IMG/VR virus record: IMGVR_UViG_3300025030_000193
Coordinates: 1-44,372 of that record
Direction: 5' to 3' (one strand)
DNA: 44,372 bases
From: a virus
A model generated the notes under the pieces. It was not told where the DNA came from. It worked only from the letters and a program-made list of their open reading frames with translations, and made no database searches. This document shows positions 12,124 through 41,805 of the stretch, piece after piece (position 1 is the stretch's first letter; each line of letters begins with the position of its first letter). A program made the position numbers and the translations under genes.

Positions 12124-12329
12124 AAACGCTTTTTTACCTTTTGTTCATATTCGGAACTACGTGGTTTTTCACCGGCGTTGTTTTGAGGGCAATCGACGTC
12201 AGCATTCAAAATCAAGACCGGATGTTGTGTTTTAGTGCTCAAAAATCTGGCAATAAAGAATATCTTGAAAAATGTCAATGTTTTTATAAAACCAAAGAAA
12301 TTATTTGTCTACAGGAGAACTCAAAATGA
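12120..12329 (+). CDS. Small one-helix membrane protein
   Basis: The 69-residue product has an N-terminal membrane segment (LFYLLFIFGTTWFFTGVVL, 4-22) and a short outer or inner tail with four cysteines (CFSAQ, CQCFY, ICLQE). It overlaps the previous gene by ATGA. It is AT-rich like the HNH gene that follows. The family is not recognised. Confidence 0.6.
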   Translation: MKTLFYLLFIFGTTWFFTGVVLRAIDVSIQNQDRMLCFSAQKSGNKEYLEKCQCFYKTKEIICLQENSK

Positions 12330-12685
12330 CAATGTTAGGTAAAAAACATTCCGAGGAAGCAAAAAGGAAAATGAGTATAGCAAGGTTGAAACAAAACCCA
12401 CAACCATTTGCTGGTAAAAAACATAGTAAGACATGGAAAGTAAAATTGAGCAAGAAAAGAAGAGGTATATATTTTAAGGAAACTGTCAAAATGAGGGGAT
12501 TGCACGATAGAATGAGAATCAAAATACCAAAATCAAAATTATGTCAGGATTGTAAAAAAAGACCATCTTTCGATTTGACAAACATTAGCCAGCAATACAA
12601 AGAGGATATTTCAGATTGGGAGTGGCTTTGTAGGTCTTGTCATATGAGAAAAGACGGAAGAATTAAAAATTTGAAAAATCAATGA
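12326..12685 (+). CDS. NUMOD3 / HNH-type homing endonuclease-like protein
   Basis: The N-terminus holds a NUMOD3 DNA-binding motif (GKKHSEEAKRKMSIARL) with a second half-copy (FAGKKHSKTW). The C-terminus has paired CxxC motifs, CQDC and CRSCH, framing a short HNH-like zinc site (WEWLCRSCHMRKD). The combination is typical of free-standing phage homing endonucleases. The ATG at 12326 follows CAGGAG. The region 12130-12690 is clearly more AT-rich than its neighbours, consistent with recent acquisition. No intron is evident around it. Confidence 0.65.
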   Translation: MTMLGKKHSEEAKRKMSIARLKQNPQPFAGKKHSKTWKVKLSKKRRGIYFKETVKMRGLHDRMRIKIPKSKLCQDCKKRPSFDLTNISQQYKEDISDWEWLCRSCHMRKDGRIKNLKNQ

Positions 12686-16444: not shown

Positions 16445-16960
16445 ATGAAATACAGAACATACTTTCCCTACGAACCGATGAACTTCTTCTTTTTTAGGGA
16501 CAAAAAGGGGAAACTAAGCGCTACTACAAATGGTTCTGGTTTCCCTGATAGAAAAACCCTTCTTGAAATGTTTGACGTTTTGAACGATATTATTTTGATT
16601 GACGAAAAAGAACTGGAAAGGATAAGTTTGGGAATTATCGAACGACGAAAAAGGGCAGACATGGAATGGAACGATGGTATGCGAAATAGAAACCATAAGC
16701 GTGAACCGGAGGAGGGATACATATATTTGATAAAAAGCCTCAATCTCTACAAAATTGGTCGATGCAAAAGTCTAGACAGGATTGGAGCATACCGGACGGA
16801 AAATCCGCACAAAATAGAACTGATTTTTCAGGTAAAGGTTTCAGACTACAGAGAAACCGAGAGGTTACTGCTCAAAAAATACTTCAACAAGCAGTACAAA
16901 GGGGAATGGTTTAGGCTGGACAAACAAGACATATTGGATATTCAAAAAACACTTTTATGA
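16445..16960 (+). CDS. GIY-YIG nuclease-like protein (T5orf172/MUG113 type)
   Basis: A 171-residue protein. Its C-terminal half has the GIY-YIG landmarks of the T5orf172/MUG113 subgroup: GYIYLIKS (91-98), LYKIGRCKSLDRI (101-113), YRTENP, Glu139 in a YRETERLL helix and GEWFRL (153-158). The N-terminal 90 residues are unrelated and charged. Members include phage and mobile-element nucleases. It heads a two-gene unit with the replication initiator, overlapping it by ATGA, so it may act at the origin or be a selfish element beside it. Confidence 0.7.
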   Translation: MKYRTYFPYEPMNFFFFRDKKGKLSATTNGSGFPDRKTLLEMFDVLNDIILIDEKELERISLGIIERRKRADMEWNDGMRNRNHKREPEEGYIYLIKSLNLYKIGRCKSLDRIGAYRTENPHKIELIFQVKVSDYRETERLLLKKYFNKQYKGEWFRLDKQDILDIQKTLL

Positions 16961-24746: not shown

Positions 24747-26132
24747 ATGGCAAACAAAGTACCGTTAGACGAAAGAATAGCAATAGGACTTCCAAGGGGG
24801 GCTGATACGATGTATCACTACGAAACGATAGAGTCGCTTTTCTCAATGTTTGGGAATAGCCCCTGTAACTACAAGATGATTTCGGTTGACAAGGTTCACC
24901 ACGTCGCCCGAAACGAAATAATGCAGCACTTCCTCGAAACAAACATGAATTACCTGCTGTTCATTGACTCAGATATGATTTGGGAGCCGGACTCCCTCGA
25001 GCTCGCCTACAACCTCATACAGCACCCGCAAGTTGACATTGTTACCGGCATCTATTTCACAAAAGGCGCTCCGCACCTGCCGGTCATCAAGAAACTCGAC
25101 CTCGAGGCGGGGTGCTACAATATCTTCGTCGAGTGGGAAAATAACCCTTTCGAAGTAGACGGGGCAGGGATGGGCTTCATGCTCATCAGCAGAGCCGTCC
25201 TGGAGGCGATGAAGCAGCCGATGTGCACGTGGGACGGGGGGTTCTCCGAGGACTTGAACTTCTGCCTCAAGGCGAAGAAAGACCACGGCTTCCGCATTTG
25301 GGCGCATCCGGGTATCAAGATTGGTCACATAGGAAGCAAAATTATCACGAATTTTGACTATATGCAGCAGTTCAAGCCAGGAGTGAAGGCGTATATCAGG
25401 GAGGCGATGGCAGGAACGAAAAAGTATCTGAAGGAAAACTACCCAAACTGGCGGGAAGATTTAGGTATTCACCCGATGATGTTCAAGAACATTAACACGA
25501 AGGAGTACTGGGACAAGCTATACGAGCAGGAGGGTGGGGCGGACAAGAACTGGCGGAGATATCCGGAAAAGTTCAGCTTCATCGTGAACGAGCTTTTGAA
25601 GGACGTACCCCTTGACTCGAGGGTTCTCGAACTGGGGTGCGGGGTTGGGGTGTTCGCGCAGGCGCTCAAAAGCAAGTACCCCTCCCTTGAATACTACGGA
25701 ATGGACATATCGGAGGTGGCGATCGACGAGATTACAAAGTTGGGACTGAAAGGGAACGCGCAAAGCATACCGCCGATAAATTTCGCGGAGAGCACAGACA
25801 TTGTGGTTGCCCTTGAGTTTTTGGAGCACCTCGACGACGAGCCGAGGCTTCAGGTCGTGCAAGAGGTTGCGCAACTCATAGGGGAAAAGGGGCGGGCGAT
25901 CTTCAGCCTTCCCGACGACTGCATGTCGCCTGAGGAGGTGGCGGAGCACAGGGTAACCTACACGAAGGAGACGTTTGAGGAGTTTTTGAAAAAGGCGTTT
26001 AGCGAGGTGAAGGTTCATCAAATCAAGAGCCGACCGTCGACGTTCTCCGAGGGTATGTTCAACTTTCTTGTCGGTGAGTGTTCAAACCGGAAGCCTATTG
26101 AGGTAAAACCAGAGAAGAAAGGAAAAGTATGA
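24747..26132 (+). CDS. Glycosyltransferase (GT-A, family 2-like) fused to a SAM methyltransferase
   Basis: A 461-residue two-domain protein. Residues about 10-235 are a GT-A glycosyltransferase: RNEIMQHFLETNMNYLLFID, the metal-binding DSD at 73-75, DIVTGIYF, FEVDGAGMGFMLISRAVLE and a likely catalytic SEDLNFCLKA. Residues about 250-450 are a class I methyltransferase with VLELGCGVGVFAQAL near 294, then MDISEVAI and IVVALEFLEHLDDE. Such fusions add and methylate a sugar, as in surface glycan synthesis; phage DNA or virion glycosylation is also possible. The N-terminal half is related to the protein at 41953. Confidence 0.75.
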   Translation: MANKVPLDERIAIGLPRGADTMYHYETIESLFSMFGNSPCNYKMISVDKVHHVARNEIMQHFLETNMNYLLFIDSDMIWEPDSLELAYNLIQHPQVDIVTGIYFTKGAPHLPVIKKLDLEAGCYNIFVEWENNPFEVDGAGMGFMLISRAVLEAMKQPMCTWDGGFSEDLNFCLKAKKDHGFRIWAHPGIKIGHIGSKIITNFDYMQQFKPGVKAYIREAMAGTKKYLKENYPNWREDLGIHPMMFKNINTKEYWDKLYEQEGGADKNWRRYPEKFSFIVNELLKDVPLDSRVLELGCGVGVFAQALKSKYPSLEYYGMDISEVAIDEITKLGLKGNAQSIPPINFAESTDIVVALEFLEHLDDEPRLQVVQEVAQLIGEKGRAIFSLPDDCMSPEEVAEHRVTYTKETFEEFLKKAFSEVKVHQIKSRPSTFSEGMFNFLVGECSNRKPIEVKPEKKGKV

Positions 26133-27215: not shown

Positions 27216-27860
27216 ATGGAAATCAAAATTGTCAGACAAATTGAAGTAGTGCCCATTGAAACCATTCATTTGTATCCGGAAAACCCTCGGGAAATCGAGG
27301 AGTCACAGTTCAGCAAGCTGAAAAAGTCCATTCAAACATACGGATTTATCGACCCGCTCATCGTCAACAAGCGAAGCCACAAAGATTTTGACGCGGACAG
27401 GGTTTCAACGGCAGTTGGAGGAAACATGCGCTATCGCGCAGCAAAAGACCTCGGATTGACCGAAGTGCCGGTTGTTTGGATTGACGTGAACCGGAACGAG
27501 GAACGAATAATCAATATCGCCCTGAATAGGATTAGTGGAAAATGGGACGTGGGAAAACTCGAAAAAATGGTGTATGAGTTGAGCGATAAAGACCTCGCAC
27601 TCGACCTTGAAATGACCGGTCTGGAGGACTGGGAGTTAAAACTCTACAATCCTGCCGAGGACATTGACGCGGAAGATATTGAAAAAATAGTCGGCACGGA
27701 TGAAAAACCAACGTATATTCTCAAAATCGTATTTGCAAGCGAAGATGAATTTTCAAGGGCATCAAAACTACTGGGCGGAGACAAGCGGATTCGAAACATT
27801 ATTCGAGGCGACGCTCTGATGAAAGTTCTTGATGTTTATGAACAACACACCCAAAACTGA
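27216..27860 (+). CDS. ParB/Srx-fold protein of a DNA modification cassette
   Basis: A 214-residue protein with a ParB N-terminal-like domain: VVPIETIHLYPENPREIE, FSKLKKSIQTYGFIDPLIVN, then the GGNMRYRAAKDLGLTEVPVV block (the GxxR nucleotide-binding box) and NEERIINIALNRISGKWD. Residues after about 130 form a separate acidic region. This ParB class occurs in phages beside DNA methylases and other base-modifying enzymes rather than in partition systems, and no ParA is present. Here it overlaps the radical SAM gene by 29 bases, supporting one functional unit. It may guide modification or act as a CTP/ATP switch or nuclease. Confidence 0.75.
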   Translation: MEIKIVRQIEVVPIETIHLYPENPREIEESQFSKLKKSIQTYGFIDPLIVNKRSHKDFDADRVSTAVGGNMRYRAAKDLGLTEVPVVWIDVNRNEERIINIALNRISGKWDVGKLEKMVYELSDKDLALDLEMTGLEDWELKLYNPAEDIDAEDIEKIVGTDEKPTYILKIVFASEDEFSRASKLLGGDKRIRNIIRGDALMKVLDVYEQHTQN

Positions 27861-29175
27861 ACGGAAAGATACCTACGTAAGCCCTCGTTGGTCGGCGGAG
27901 TTTTTGGATTGCTCCATGCCTATGACGTTCGACCAGTACAATTTGTGTTCTTACCGCTGTCAATACTGCTTCTCTTTTTATCAGCGTATCCACATGAAGG
28001 ACTATGCGGAAAACAATGCAAAATTTGTCAATGTGGAAAAGGTGAAAGACATTTTTTTACACCCGGACGATTCTGAGTTCGGAGAGTACGTCAAAAAGCG
28101 GATACCTATGCAATGGGGGGGACTGAGCGAACCTTTTGACATTTACCTTGAGCCAAAATATGGTATTGGTTTGGAGTTGATGAAGTTTTTTCGAGAAATT
28201 GATTACCCCGTCGCATTCAGCACAAAGTCAGTATGGTGGTTAAAAGACAGCCGATATACCGACATTGTTCGAAATGCAAAAAACTTTCATTTCAAGTTTT
28301 CAATTATTACGATGGATGAAGAAAAACGCCGGATCATTGAACAGGGTGTACCAACAACAGCAGACCGGCTGTGGGCACTCGGGGAAGTGGCAAAACTAAA
28401 TACCGCCGGTGTCAATTTGCGTTTGCGACCTTTTATGATTGGCGTGAGTAATCCTACACACTTACAACTTATTCGGGAAGCAGCCAATCGGGGAGCTGGT
28501 GCACTCACAACAGAGTTCTTTTGTTTGGAGTCTCGGGCAGACCTTCGGGTGAAGAAGCGATATGCCATTATGTCTCATGCGTGCGGGTTTGACCTATGGC
28601 AGTTTTATAAAACAAACAGTCGGAGAATGCAGGGATATTTGAGATTAAACTACGAAATCAAACGCCCCTTCATTGAAGAAATGCAGGCGCTTTGTAAAGA
28701 GTTGGGTATAGGATTTTTTGTGAGTGACGCGCACCACAAAGAAAAATGTGTCCTTGCTGACAAGTGTGCGAAAAAGTGTCCGCAGGCTGACGGAAATACA
28801 ATGGACGATACCCAGTGGGGCAGTTGTTGTGGGTTGCCAAACGACACATATTTCTCAAACCATGCAAAATGCCAGTTTACGCAGGCGATAACCCTCGCAA
28901 AAAAGAACGGAGAGGTAAGATTCAATGAAATCGATAAAGAATTTAACGAATATCTGAAAGGAACGAAGGTAAACACAGTGCTTCATGCTGGCGATATGGC
29001 ACAGCACTACCATAAAACCATGTACGATTACATGAAATATATCTGGAACCACCCTACAGCCTCACAAAGCCCGTGGCGATATTTTGATAAACTGATGATA
29101 CCTGTCAGGGTTGATGAGGACGGAATGGTCGTGTATAAATTCAATCAGGAAAAATATGACAACCACACCGTATAA
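27832..29175 (+). CDS. Radical SAM enzyme with auxiliary cysteine cluster
   Basis: The 447-residue enzyme has the radical SAM signature CSYRCQYC at 39-46 (CxxxCxxC), followed by the Phe typical of spore-photolyase-like members. Later come WGGLSEPFD (GGEP-like block), VAFSTKS, FKFSIITMDEEKRRIIEQG and LRPFMIGVSNP. A C-terminal set of cysteines (CVLADKCAKKC, then GSCCGLP, then a later Cys) could hold a second Fe-S cluster. Such enzymes use a 5'-deoxyadenosyl radical on difficult C-H bonds. Sandwiched between ParB and a TET-associated glycosyltransferase, DNA base chemistry is the most likely role. Start could be 27832 or 27838. Confidence 0.75.
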   Translation: MFMNNTPKTERKDTYVSPRWSAEFLDCSMPMTFDQYNLCSYRCQYCFSFYQRIHMKDYAENNAKFVNVEKVKDIFLHPDDSEFGEYVKKRIPMQWGGLSEPFDIYLEPKYGIGLELMKFFREIDYPVAFSTKSVWWLKDSRYTDIVRNAKNFHFKFSIITMDEEKRRIIEQGVPTTADRLWALGEVAKLNTAGVNLRLRPFMIGVSNPTHLQLIREAANRGAGALTTEFFCLESRADLRVKKRYAIMSHACGFDLWQFYKTNSRRMQGYLRLNYEIKRPFIEEMQALCKELGIGFFVSDAHHKEKCVLADKCAKKCPQADGNTMDDTQWGSCCGLPNDTYFSNHAKCQFTQAITLAKKNGEVRFNEIDKEFNEYLKGTKVNTVLHAGDMAQHYHKTMYDYMKYIWNHPTASQSPWRYFDKLMIPVRVDEDGMVVYKFNQEKYDNHTV

Positions 29176-29941
29176 AATAGTAATTCCATCATACAAGCGC
29201 GCTGAAACGCTCCGCGATAAGACGCTCAAGTTACTAGCTCATTACAATATACCAGTGGAGAAAATCCATATTTTTGTTGCAAATAAAGAGGAAGCAGAGA
29301 TATACGGAAAAACGCTTGATCCAAAAACATTCGGAGTAATAATTATCGGTGTCCCCGGTATGCGGGCAATTCGCAATTTCATTCAAGACTGGTTTTTAGA
29401 AGGCGAGTACATTGTAAACATAGACGACGACATTCAGGCAATCAAGGTTCGATTGAATGACTACGAGTGCAAGGACTTGCACAATTTAGATGAGTTTATT
29501 ACTTCCGCATTTGATATGTGCGACAAAAAGGTATGGGCAAGCTTGTGGGGGGTCTATCCGATGATCAATCCACTTTTTATGCACAATGATATCACCCTCG
29601 ATTTGCAGTACATAATCGGCGCTTTTTGGGGAGTTATCAACACTCACGACCCTGAAACCTATGTTACCGGCGAGGGCAAGGAAGATTTTGAACGCACGAT
29701 AAAATTCTATATTCGCGATAACAAGGTTGTCCGATTTAACAATGTTGGCATCAAGACCTCCTACTACACCGAACCCGGAGGTATGCAGGCCAACGCCACA
29801 AAAGAGGAACGGCAAAAAGAAGAGGTACGGTGCGGAAGAATCCTACTTGAAAAGTATCCAATGTTCTGTGAAGTGAATAAAGCAAGGAAGAGGCGCTTTG
29901 AAATCCGGCTGGTTGACAAAAGGAGAAAACATGGACGATAG
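29156..29941 (+). CDS. TET-associated glycosyltransferase (TAGT) family DNA-base glycosyltransferase
   Basis: A 261-residue GT-A enzyme with the TAGT pattern: YKIVIPSYKRAETLRDKTL at the start, KIHIFVANKEEAEIYGKTL, GVPGMRAIRNFI, the metal-binding IDDDI at 89-93, then GAFWGVINT, a GKEDFERTIKFY block, VVRFNNVGIKTSYY and EPGGMQ. TAGTs were predicted by comparative genomics to glycosylate hydroxymethylated pyrimidines in phage DNA, usually beside a TET/JBP oxygenase. No TET gene is visible here. The ATG at 29156 follows CAGGAAAA and overlaps the radical SAM gene by 20 bases. Confidence 0.75.
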   Translation: MTTTPYKIVIPSYKRAETLRDKTLKLLAHYNIPVEKIHIFVANKEEAEIYGKTLDPKTFGVIIIGVPGMRAIRNFIQDWFLEGEYIVNIDDDIQAIKVRLNDYECKDLHNLDEFITSAFDMCDKKVWASLWGVYPMINPLFMHNDITLDLQYIIGAFWGVINTHDPETYVTGEGKEDFERTIKFYIRDNKVVRFNNVGIKTSYYTEPGGMQANATKEERQKEEVRCGRILLEKYPMFCEVNKARKRRFEIRLVDKRRKHGR

Positions 29942-30395
29942 GCTCTTGCGGTTTTTGAAGGAGAGTAACGCGATCGAGGGTGTGTACGACGCCGAATCGC
30001 TGGGGCAGGCGGTGTTCGCGTGGGAGTTCCTCGAGTCGCAAAAGGAGATGAGCATAGGCGTGGTTCTCAAGACCCACAAAGTACTCATGCTCCACCAAAA
30101 ATTGAGACCGGACGAGAAGGGATATTTCCGGAAAATTCAGGTTGAGGTCGGGGGCAGGGAGGGAATCAAGTGGACGTTCATCCCCGAGGCGATGCAGGTG
30201 TGGTGCATGAACGCGCAACTCTATCCCAAACAATGGAAGGAGCACCATATTCGGTTCGAGCAGATACATCCCTTCGTCGACGGAAACGGGAGGGTGGGAA
30301 GAATGCTCATGAACTGGGAGAGGCTCAAGGACGGGAAGGAAATAATCGTCATCAAGGAACTGAGGAAGTACGAGTACTACCAGTGGTTTGAGTGA
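29931..30395 (+). CDS. Fic-domain AMPylase with N-terminal inhibitory motif
   Basis: A 154-residue Fic/Doc protein. The catalytic loop HPFVDGNGRVGR (113-124) is intact, including the His and the DGNGR anion hole. The N-terminus has SNAIEG (12-17), matching the (S/T)xxxE(G/N) inhibitory helix whose Glu blocks productive ATP binding. So it is probably an autoinhibited adenylyltransferase of the N-terminal-inhibitor class. Targets cannot be read from sequence. AAAAGGAG precedes the ATG; it overlaps the TAGT gene by 11 bases, placing it in the same transcript as the modification cassette. Confidence 0.85.
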   Translation: MDDRLLRFLKESNAIEGVYDAESLGQAVFAWEFLESQKEMSIGVVLKTHKVLMLHQKLRPDEKGYFRKIQVEVGGREGIKWTFIPEAMQVWCMNAQLYPKQWKEHHIRFEQIHPFVDGNGRVGRMLMNWERLKDGKEIIVIKELRKYEYYQWFE

Positions 30396-30981: not shown

Positions 30982-31535
30982 AAACACACGCAAGGATCGA
31001 CTGGGGTAAGGCTCGGCAAGAGTTCACCGCCACGAAGGGCATGAGCCTCAAGGACGTCGCCGAGAAGTACAAGATGAGCTACAGCATGGTTCTCAAGGTG
31101 TCGATGAGGGAGGGGTGGGTGAAGGAAAAAGAAAGGGTCTGGGGCGAGGCGGAGAAAGGGGCGCTCGTGGAGACGGAGGGCTCGATAAAAGACCTTATTA
31201 CCCGTCACTCGAAGGTCGCCCGATTCCTGCAAGCGGGTGCACTCAACCAGCTCAAGATAGTCGTTCAATATCTCCAGGAACATCCTGCGGTCTTGCAGAC
31301 TACGAACCTCGTCGCACTGGCAAAAATAATCCAAGCTCTGACCGGAATGTCCGGGGAGGGACTGAAGGCGGAGCGGGAACTCTACCCGAAACAAATGAAG
31401 CTCGAAGGCGACCTCGACGTGAAATATACGGAAGTGTCGCCCGAGCTTAGAAAGGCAGCCCATGACGCCCTTGTCAAAGCAACGAGCAGCAAGCCAAGAG
31501 AAAGAACTGGGGATAATCGAAAGAAACAAGGTTGA
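30978..31535 (+). CDS. Terminase small subunit
   Basis: A 185-residue protein with an N-terminal helix-turn-helix (MSLKDVAEKYKMSYSMVLK, 23-41, then VSMREGW) of the type used by small terminases to bind pac/cos DNA. A long helical middle (ARFLQAGALNQLKIVVQYL) is suited to ring assembly, and the end is basic. I chose the ATG at 30978 after GGAGGAAGGGG. It overlaps the large terminase gene by 74 bases, an unusually long overlap that implies tight coupling. Confidence 0.7.
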   Translation: MKTHARIDWGKARQEFTATKGMSLKDVAEKYKMSYSMVLKVSMREGWVKEKERVWGEAEKGALVETEGSIKDLITRHSKVARFLQAGALNQLKIVVQYLQEHPAVLQTTNLVALAKIIQALTGMSGEGLKAERELYPKQMKLEGDLDVKYTEVSPELRKAAHDALVKATSSKPRERTGDNRKKQG

Positions 31536-33105
31536 CTATTTTTACGACTGGTCGATAGACAACATCTGCACCCCAAAGGGTGAGAAGCTGGATTTTTTTG
31601 ACCACAAGTACCTCGTCGGTATCTACAATGATACTTCACGGGACATACGCATCAAGAAGGCAGCGCAGATAGGCGTATCCACTTATGCAATCAACAGGTC
31701 TCTTTGGTTCGCGGACACGCACAACGTATCCGTGATATACACGTTCCCCACCGCCTCCGACGTTGCGGACTTCTCAAAGGCAAGGATCGCGCCGGTCATT
31801 CAGGCGTCGCCCCACCTCGCCCGCATCGTCGAGGGAGGGATAGAGCTCAAGCAGGTGGGCGCGTCGTTTCTTTACTTCCGAGGCGCATGGTCGGAACGGC
31901 AGGCAATCGCCGTGGACAGCGACTTCAACATACACGATGAGATTGACTTCTCGAAGCCCGACATAATCGAGATGTACAAAGAGCGTCTGTCCCATTCGAA
32001 GTACAAGTTGTTTCTGGCGCTTTCAACGCCGACAATCCCCGAATTTGGTATTGACTACCTGTTCGGCAGGAGCGACAAGAAGGAGTGGTTTGTTACCTGC
32101 CCGAAGTGCAAAAAGAAGCAGATACTCAAGTTCCCCGACTCGATCAGGGGCGACGCGCTCGAAGCGCGGTATGCCTGCGTTTTTTGTCGGGCGACCATTA
32201 CAGACGACGCTCGTAGACAAGGGGAATGGAGGGCAACCGGTGACTCAAGGTGGGGCGCTTCTGGGTATCACATATCGCAACTTATGGCTCCGTGGATCAG
32301 CGCAACAGAAATCTTACGAAAAGAAGAAGCGAGCAGAATACGACCCACTCAGCAGCTAAGCGGAATAAAAGACTTCTATAACTTTGTGCTAGGCGAAGCC
32401 TACGGCGGAGAGAATGTTCCATTGAATAGAGATATACTCCTTTCCTGCATACAAAACAAGTACGACCTCGAGCAGAAAGGGAGGAATACGATAATGGGGG
32501 TAGACCAGGGCGACAAACTGCACGTCACGATTTGGAACAAGGAAAGCCCGACGGAGATACGGCTCATCCATACGGGTGTGTATGAGTCGTTCGATATCGA
32601 CCTGCCGAACCTCATGGAGAAGTACAATGTCACGTTCTGCCTCATCGACGCCCTGCCGAACAAACATTCTGCGCGCAAGTTCGCCTTGATGTACATGGCA
32701 AAGGTGTGGCTCGTGTACTACAACGACACCCAAAAAGAATTTATTAAATGGTATCAGGAAGAAGAAACGAAAGAATACCGCGTTATCGTCAACAAAATGG
32801 AGTCGCTCGACCGCATGGCGGACAAATTCAAGAACCACATGATTATCCTTCCGAGGCTTTCACAGGAGATTGACCTGCTGATACGCCATTTGTGCAACTG
32901 GGCGAAGGACAAGGAGGAGAAGCCCGACGGCAGGGTCGTGTGGGTATACAAAAAGCTCGGAGCCGACCACTTGACAATGGCAAGTAACTATGCAATGCTG
33001 GGGATTGACAAACTGTCGACGGGCTCTTTGGCTGAACCTAAGGCGGAGGATATTCCCATGAAGGAACGTCCCATCACCGCCGGAGTTTTGAACAAAAAAT
33101 TTTAG
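31462..33105 (+). CDS. Terminase large subunit, GpA-like
   Basis: A 547-residue packaging motor. The ATPase part has a GpA-type Walker A variant KKAAQIGVST (65-74), strand VSVIYTFPTASDVADFSK, and Walker B NIHDEIDF with DE at 159-160. A zinc site typical of GpA proteins lies at 213-242 (CPKC...CVFC). The nuclease part starts with IMGVDQGD (Asp348) and includes CLIDALPN and a late DHLTMASNYA. It is about 90 residues shorter than lambda GpA. The family is used by lambda, some P2-like and many Mu-head-type phages to cut and translocate DNA. Confidence 0.88.
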   Translation: MTPLSKQRAASQEKELGIIERNKVDYFYDWSIDNICTPKGEKLDFFDHKYLVGIYNDTSRDIRIKKAAQIGVSTYAINRSLWFADTHNVSVIYTFPTASDVADFSKARIAPVIQASPHLARIVEGGIELKQVGASFLYFRGAWSERQAIAVDSDFNIHDEIDFSKPDIIEMYKERLSHSKYKLFLALSTPTIPEFGIDYLFGRSDKKEWFVTCPKCKKKQILKFPDSIRGDALEARYACVFCRATITDDARRQGEWRATGDSRWGASGYHISQLMAPWISATEILRKEEASRIRPTQQLSGIKDFYNFVLGEAYGGENVPLNRDILLSCIQNKYDLEQKGRNTIMGVDQGDKLHVTIWNKESPTEIRLIHTGVYESFDIDLPNLMEKYNVTFCLIDALPNKHSARKFALMYMAKVWLVYYNDTQKEFIKWYQEEETKEYRVIVNKMESLDRMADKFKNHMIILPRLSQEIDLLIRHLCNWAKDKEEKPDGRVVWVYKKLGADHLTMASNYAMLGIDKLSTGSLAEPKAEDIPMKERPITAGVLNKKF

Positions 33106-41247: not shown

Positions 41248-41805
41248 ATGAAACCCAAGTGGCATTGGATGAATCAACCAAGAGTCAAATATCAAGAAGC
41301 TCTTAGAGGAATGTCTAAGGGCTGGGGAAAAAAGCCAAGAACTGGAAAAACATTAAAATGTTCTATTTGTAACAGAGATTTTTACCTGAGACCATCTCTT
41401 ATCAAAAGAGCCAAAAAAAACTATTGTTCAAAAAGATGTTTTAATGAATCTAAGAAAGGCTCAATTCCAAAGAACATTAAAATAGCTCAAAAGAATAGCC
41501 CGATAAAATCTGGCAAGGAAAATATTAATTGGAAGGGTGGAATTACACCTTACCCAAAAGAATGGACAGGCTCTTTGCATTACAGGGTTTGGGTAAGGGA
41601 TAAAAACGCTTGCCAGAAATGCGGTAAAGTCGGGGTAAAAAGAACAGACCTTATTGTTCACCACAAAGACTTTATCAAGGAGAATTGTGGGATTGGCAAT
41701 CTAGTTCTCCTTTGCAGGTCTTGCCATATGAGGGTTCACTGGCAAGCCAATAAAGGAATACCAGGGTTGAAAAAATTTAATAGGATTCTTTTAAGAGCTT
41801 CTTGA
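41248..41805 (+). CDS. Free-standing HNH endonuclease
   Basis: A 185-residue basic protein. It has an N-terminal zinc ribbon (LKCSICNRDF, NYCSKRCFNE, 37-75), a middle linker with NWKGGITPYP as in phage HNH homing enzymes, and an HNH domain: RDKNACQKCGKVG, DLIVHHKDFIKENC, NLVLLCRSCHMRVHW. These enzymes nick or cut related genomes lacking the insert and so spread. It has its own promoter but no ribosome site, unlike its neighbours, and is AT-rich. A partial copy of the upstream gene's end follows it. Confidence 0.85.
   Translation: MKPKWHWMNQPRVKYQEALRGMSKGWGKKPRTGKTLKCSICNRDFYLRPSLIKRAKKNYCSKRCFNESKKGSIPKNIKIAQKNSPIKSGKENINWKGGITPYPKEWTGSLHYRVWVRDKNACQKCGKVGVKRTDLIVHHKDFIKENCGIGNLVLLCRSCHMRVHWQANKGIPGLKKFNRILLRAS

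Follow-up and report, generated by a model that had tools for sequence, protein, structure and literature searches.

How does a phage obtain the hydroxyl group that a DNA glycosyltransferase needs when none of the enzymes known to supply it is found near the glycosyltransferase gene? This question is raised by a three-gene cassette in the IMG/VR virus record IMGVR_UViG_3300025030_000193, which was analysed over its whole length of 44,372 nucleotides (the window). The cassette encodes a ParB-domain protein, a radical S-adenosylmethionine (SAM) enzyme, called rSAM here, and a TET-associated glycosyltransferase (TAGT). Iyer, Aravind and colleagues are said to have predicted that TAGTs glycosylate hydroxymethylpyrimidines made by TET/JBP oxygenases or hydroxymethylases. 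Kinases and glycosyltransferases both require a hydroxyl, and TET supplies it from a 5-methyl group using oxygen. To our knowledge, every hydroxymethyl base known in DNA comes either from a folate-dependent synthase acting on free nucleotides or from oxygen-dependent TET/JBP. Our analysis indicates that the cassette is probably an oxygen-free route to a glycosylated pyrimidine in phage DNA, with rSAM in the place of TET/JBP as its oxygen-independent counterpart.

Results

Three overlapping genes form the cassette

All three genes were intact and located on the plus strand (Table 1). The original prediction of overlapping genes for a ParB-fold protein, a radical SAM enzyme and a TAGT was borne out, and the stated 29- and 20-base overlaps hold for ATG starts at 27832 and 29156; the TAGT reading frame is open further 5', from TTG 29111. 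The CSYRCQYC motif, the C-terminal cysteines, the IDDD motif and the EPGGMQ block were all found in the window proteins. In Pfam, the ParB protein and the TAGT scored above their cut-offs, while rSAM scored 16.1 bits against Radical_SAM (PF04055), under the cut-off of 29.5. The ParB gene, which starts with AGAGGTGATATATG, also matched phrog_620 (2.8e-31), and its product is the putative DNA-targeting partner. The EPGGMQ block of the window TAGT recurs in the TAGTs that belong to TET cassettes of Mycobacterium and Arthrobacter phages. The AF2 model of the TAGT (pLDDT 94) showed a GT-A fold, and its Foldseek matches were GT-A enzymes. Judged by its family, the window TAGT would transfer a sugar to a hydroxymethyl base in DNA.

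ParB and rSAM stay together while the transferase changes

Neighbourhoods were counted in 54 non-redundant rSAM loci with flanks and, at the level of records, in 42 rSAM records including the window. ParB was found in 53 of the 54 loci, TAGT in 20, a P-loop kinase in 24 and GNAT in 15. The neighbouring ParB, TAGT and kinase matches were all co-oriented with rSAM, which speaks against a chance neighbourhood. Amino-acid:DNA transferase (ADDT) was present in 21/54 loci, never without the kinase. The kinase profile matched the 5-hydroxymethyldeoxyuridine (5hmdU) kinase of Pseudomonas phage M6 at 1.3e-18, and the ADDT matched that of M6. Ten loci had neither TAGT nor kinase, and five of these had a GT-B-like gene (L018, L043, L046, L053 and L126, the last by eye); L126 has a PIG-L-like gene by motif (12.5 bits in Pfam). 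TET was present in one of the 54 loci and in 3 of the 42 records. Thymidylate synthase was found in none of the 42 records, though many of them have a 5-hydroxymethyluracil (hmU)-type kinase and ADDT.

The two nearest relatives of the window rSAM, in L017 and L018, were 66-69% identical to it, and in the window, L017 and L018 the same slot is filled by three unrelated transferases (TAGT, kinase or GT-B). Along the rSAM tree, 13 switches between TAGT and kinase were counted, the most telling of them among the window, L017 and L018. A natural fusion was found in L055, where the rSAM open reading frame (ORF) of 716 aa carries a C-terminal TAGT domain (PF20691, 6.5e-22). Both transferase types were present in L055 (fused TAGT, kinase and ADDT) and in the redundant locus L087, so TAGT and kinase are usually, not strictly, alternatives.

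Two further observations were made on rSAM genes and their neighbours. The rSAM ORF of L053 (597 aa) has a weak, seemingly degenerate C-terminal TAGT domain. Directly 3' of rSAM in L023 (3667-4590) lies a gene for a DUF362 protein with 4Fe-4S motifs, a possible electron partner.

TET cassettes share the same architecture

Two more IMG/VR scans with TET profiles gave 62 non-redundant TET loci, with ParB in 59, kinase in 41, ADDT in 35, TAGT in 16 and rSAM in 2. A TET cassette is built of ParB, TET and either TAGT, ADDT with kinase, or GT-B, and the rSAM loci are built of ParB, rSAM and the same partners. The counts of the two surveys therefore show that both systems share all core parts save the oxidising enzyme, one being exchanged for the other in the same architecture. 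A phage SAM synthetase adjoined rSAM in 11/54 loci (e.g. L069 and L101) and was found in 0/62 TET loci (p 1e-4, shared ancestry not corrected), which is consistent with an enzyme that spends SAM genome-wide.

In a quick tree of 52 TAGT rows, TET and rSAM settings were mixed, with 8 changes, and a single clade of rSAM-linked TAGTs was rejected in a careful tree of 29 rows (p ~5e-56). The set in which the quick tree placed the window TAGT has 99% support and consists of 13 TAGTs from TET settings and 2 from rSAM settings; the exact place of the window TAGT was open in the careful tree. In the quick tree, the larger of the two, it lay outside the main rSAM-linked TAGT clade, among the TET-linked ones. 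The ADDT tree showed only 3 changes between TET and rSAM settings; the ADDT module therefore moved rarely. An IMG/VR scan with three TAGTs returned few loci owing to its narrow patterns. In L072, a TAGT gene, a phosphotransferase-like gene and a nucleotidyltransferase-like gene adjoin rSAM, which parallels the order TET-TAGT-phosphatase-thymidylyltransferase of Synechococcus phage S-CBWM1 and gives a second parallel between TET and rSAM systems.

Mycobacterium phage Acadian has the order ParB-TET-TAGT-deacetylase-kinase-terminase, and gene 2 of the Mycobacterium phage matched Tet_JBP with 21.6 bits, under the cut-off of 34.9. Many records label Acadian gp2 (L097, 813-1691) and its cluster-mates as queuine tRNA-ribosyltransferase or DpdA-like, yet they match Tet_JBP. 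Acadian gp5 and M6 gp54 are both labelled terminase small subunit; the former is a P-loop nucleotide kinase (PF18751, 3e-61) and the latter a 5hmdU kinase.

The modelled fold of rSAM most resembles spore photoproduct lyase, and its family is large

The AF2 model of rSAM (pLDDT 89.8, pTM 0.90) showed a clear radical SAM fold. Of the 36 matches that Foldseek with VIA-align gave at E <= 0.001, the best were radical SAM proteins, and the closest PDB folds were those of spore photoproduct lyase (SPL; Z 20.2), followed by the next family at Z 16.3. By sequence, rSAM was weakly related to the PA0069 and Rv2578c families of NCBIfam; sequence searches of PDB were uninformative, and a BFVD fold search returned distant viral radical SAM proteins only. 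In the family alignment, C28, C40, C44, C47, C232, C333 and C334 were invariant in 61/61 members, C307 was kept in 77%, and many had a Cys at 348 or 351. By spacing alone, no invariant rSAM Cys downstream of the cluster motif matched the H-donor Cys of SPL (C141 in B. subtilis), and the invariant C28 precedes the cluster. C28 is a candidate catalytic cysteine, and the C-terminal cysteines may hold an auxiliary Fe-S cluster or a metal.

IMG/VR, scanned with a profile, yielded 190 loci with rSAM relatives, of which 80 were kept, and a single scan of prokaryote genomes yielded 28 loci. Two of the carriers are prophages of cultured isolates, namely Selenomonas ruminantium S137 (L114, kinase type) and Bacteroides fragilis S82 (L107, ADDT-kinase type). 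A tblastn search with rSAM against 50,697 phage records gave no match at E 1e-5 and a single chance-level match at E 10. The family is large, yet absent among sequenced phage isolates. Named rSAM hosts of known physiology were anaerobic (Bacteroides, Phocaeicola, Prevotella, Clostridia, Lachnospiraceae, Selenomonas, Victivallales and rumen Spirochaetaceae), whereas the hosts of TET phages were aerobic (Mycobacterium, Arthrobacter, Synechococcus and Caulobacter).

Genome context and search for other acceptor makers

The window record is a linear, incomplete viral contig that spans tail genes to a giant repeat protein, with terminase, portal, Mu-like protease and capsid genes 3' of the cassette. 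The gene order is ParB-rSAM-TAGT-Fic-TerS-TerL, and a terminase downstream of the cassette was also found in most rSAM loci and in the Mycobacterium TET cassettes. The near-twin contig IMGVR_UViG_3300025012_000308 is 99% identical and reaches 3.5 kb beyond the window. Profile searches gave no match to TET (PF12851, Tet_JBP), thymidylate synthase, C5-cytosine methylase or ThyX in the incomplete window record or in the near-twin, which confirmed the claimed absence of TET, hydroxymethylase and thymidylate synthase from the window. The 3.5 kb extension holds the gene of a single giant repeat protein and the beginning of a further ORF, and no new modification gene. A hydroxymethylase concealed beyond the window end was rejected as far as these 3.5 kb show, the remaining gap being unseen.

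Table 1. Positions of the cassette genes, their motifs and neighbouring genes in the window
Feature	Positions	Strand	Evidence or remark
ParB N-terminal-domain protein, 214 aa	27216..27860	+	PF02195, 46.2 bits vs cut-off 26.3, 4.7e-12
SPL-like radical SAM enzyme (rSAM)	27829..29175	+	448 aa from TTG 27829, 447 aa from ATG 27832
Cys28 of rSAM, 12 residues ahead of the cluster motif	27910..27912	+	invariant 61/61
CxxxCxxC (CSYRCQYC) 4Fe-4S/SAM motif of rSAM, residues 40-47	27946..27969	+	invariant 61/61
C-terminal cysteine cluster of rSAM (C307, C333, C334, C348)	28747..28872	+	conservation in family alignment
TAGT glycosyltransferase, 261 aa from ATG 29156	29156..29941	+	PF20691, 41.5 bits vs cut-off 27.5
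DDD metal/sugar-nucleotide motif of TAGT	29423..29431	+	alignment
EPGGMQ block of TAGT	29771..29788	+	alignment
GT2-like glycosyltransferase fused to SAM methyltransferase	24747..26132	+	upstream of ParB
Fic/DOC domain protein	29934..30395	+	PF02661, 2.1e-12; same gene run
Terminase large subunit	31462..33105	+	landmark shortly downstream of the cassette

The GT2-methyltransferase fusion is kept upstream of ParB in the closest relatives L017, L018 and L022, and it might be an accessory for sugar methylation or extension. The Fic/DOC protein has an HPFxxGNGR motif, its gene overlaps the 3' end of the TAGT gene, and it was not seen in other rSAM loci. Three different homing-endonuclease-like genes were found in the window, at 12305-12685 (NUMOD3/HNH), 16445-16960 (T5orf172, GIY-YIG-like) and 41248-41805 (HNH).

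Discussion

Proposed mechanism

Among the enzymes of the rSAM loci, rSAM alone is both constant and able to supply a hydroxyl; therefore, hydrogen abstraction from the thymine methyl, oxidation and hydration, followed by glycosylation, are proposed. ParB would bring rSAM to the DNA, where a pyrimidine, most probably thymine, would lose a hydrogen of its 5-methyl group to the 5'-deoxyadenosyl radical. The resulting allylic radical would then be oxidised, possibly through an electron-accepting site housed by the conserved extra cysteines, and addition of water would give hmU. The TAGT, a member of a known family, would put a sugar on the new hydroxyl, and the resulting base-J-like nucleotide would block host nucleases. 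Sister phages would use the same rSAM to supply a hydroxymethyl kinase and ADDT, or a GT-B enzyme. The SPL reaction runs via a thymine allylic radical, which is quenched by cysteine (PMC5368176), and BciD is a radical SAM enzyme that hydroxylates a methyl group (PMC7242693). For the family as a whole, we lean slightly towards SPL-fold enzymes that hydroxylate the thymine methyl in DNA without oxygen and feed at least three unrelated hypermodifications in phages whose hosts are anaerobes of the gut, the rumen and elsewhere.

Weighing the alternatives

The claim that rSAM provides the acceptor, as TET does elsewhere, is supported by the shared architecture, the switching of TAGTs between the two settings, the L055 fusion and the lack of thymidylate synthase in all 42 records. 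Several points weigh against it, two of which, M6 gp53 and the methylase of L021 and L123, are taken up with the alternatives below. The chemistry of rSAM and the modified base are predictions, the window record is incomplete, host oxygen use was taken from the names of hosts and not measured, and 5/54 rSAM loci are without a clear transferase. Moreover, L089, L090 and L091 have the order ParB-TET-ParB-rSAM-TAGT together with a second (SPASM-like) radical SAM gene, TET and rSAM each being preceded by its own ParB. Both oxidisers coexist there, and rSAM may act otherwise or on a second base; the replacement of TET is therefore not universal.

The pairing of TET with rSAM in L089-L091 would also fit an acceptor that comes from an unseen host enzyme or a missing gene, with rSAM rearranging or decorating the base or an adduct. 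M6, which has ADDT, kinase, thymidylate synthase and an SPL-like rSAM in one region, lends itself to this explanation, and M6 gp53, the nearest phage radical SAM enzyme of a broadly similar kind to have been characterised, is presumably a tailoring isomerase that acts after the amino-acid transferase and not a hydroxylase; Lee et al. reportedly described it as an isomerase in 2022. With hhalign, gp53 was tied to the rSAM family (E 5e-5, 172 columns, 20% identity), but the family hidden Markov model did not match gp53 even with filters off, and gp53 appears to be a distant relative at best. The window is without ADDT and kinase and would therefore offer no amino-acid adduct to rearrange, TET accompanies rSAM in only 3 of the 42 records and thymidylate synthase in none, and rSAM stays constant while the partner transferase changes. 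Such a tailoring role is unlikely.

The same design could also act on another base, with rSAM oxidising the methyl group of 5-methylcytosine (or a further base) and not of thymine. TET acts on 5-methylcytosine as well as on thymine. A C5-cytosine methylase adjoins ParB and rSAM in L021 and L123, which makes 5-methylcytosine a possible base in some loci, and T-even TAGTs glycosylate hydroxymethylcytosine-derived bases (PMC13216743). Since the window and 38/42 records have no C5-cytosine methylase, and the ADDT and kinase partners belong to the thymidine pathway, we regard another base as decidedly unlikely. A target other than DNA, be it a glycan, a protein or RNA of phage or host, with TAGT and ParB being incidental, is very improbable: the second glycosyltransferase, fused to a methyltransferase, upstream and the many substrates of radical SAM enzymes would allow it, but ParB is nearly always present, DNA is the substrate of the ADDT and hmU-kinase partners, the enzyme with the nearest fold works on thymine in DNA, a terminase is adjacent and the layout is common with TET. 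That unrelated genes were joined by chance in one phage lineage is scarcely credible; nothing speaks for it except that one window is small, and the survey refuted it, as the trio pattern recurs in 54 non-redundant loci that differ in terminase type and host phylum, its genes always share a strand, and a natural fusion exists.

Implications

If oxygen-independent hydroxylation by rSAM is correct, a radical SAM route on polymerised DNA would be a third chemistry, although an earlier mention of the rSAM-TAGT pairing may exist. It would explain DNA hypermodification by phages of strict anaerobes, provide a tool enzyme for oxygen-free base oxidation, and open a large unexplored set of anaerobe phages to standard nucleoside mass spectrometry. 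Among 753 phage genomes with glucosyltransferase homologues, 288 have TAGT homologues alone, for which novel transferases were suggested (PMC13216743); a family of the rSAM type could explain some of these TAGT-only genomes.

Comparison with known systems

The cassette closely resembles the phage TET/JBP-TAGT cassettes (Acadian gp1-gp5, Indlovu, and Arthrobacter phages Altadena and Lilmac1015), in which ParB comes first, followed by the base oxidiser and a TAGT of the same clade, and in Mycobacterium phages the TET cassette, like the window trio, lies shortly ahead of the terminase. It differs from them in that an SPL-like rSAM replaces the oxygenase TET, no PIG-L deacetylase is present and the hosts of the rSAM family are anaerobic. 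With the thymidine hypermodification of Pseudomonas phage M6 and Salmonella phage ViI it shares a predicted group transfer onto a hydroxymethyl pyrimidine, the kinase and ADDT homologues of sister rSAM loci and, for M6, an SPL-like rSAM; however, M6 makes 5hmdU before replication with a thymidylate-synthase homologue, whereas the window is without one and uses a glycosyltransferase. SPL (PDB 4FHC and relatives) has the closest fold and performs radical SAM chemistry at DNA thymine via an allylic radical, but identity is 14%, the C-terminal region of rSAM is longer with cysteines of its own, and dimer repair is not expected. The T-even TAGT (beta-glucosyl-HMC-alpha-glucosyltransferase, PF20691, phrog_842) belongs to the same Pfam family and has the same GT-A fold, but adds a second sugar to glucosyl-hydroxymethylcytosine, while the window TAGT is the only transferase of its trio. 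BciD, of bacteriochlorophyll e biosynthesis, shows that an aromatic methyl group can be hydroxylated by a radical SAM enzyme; its substrate is a tetrapyrrole, and the likeness lies in the reaction.

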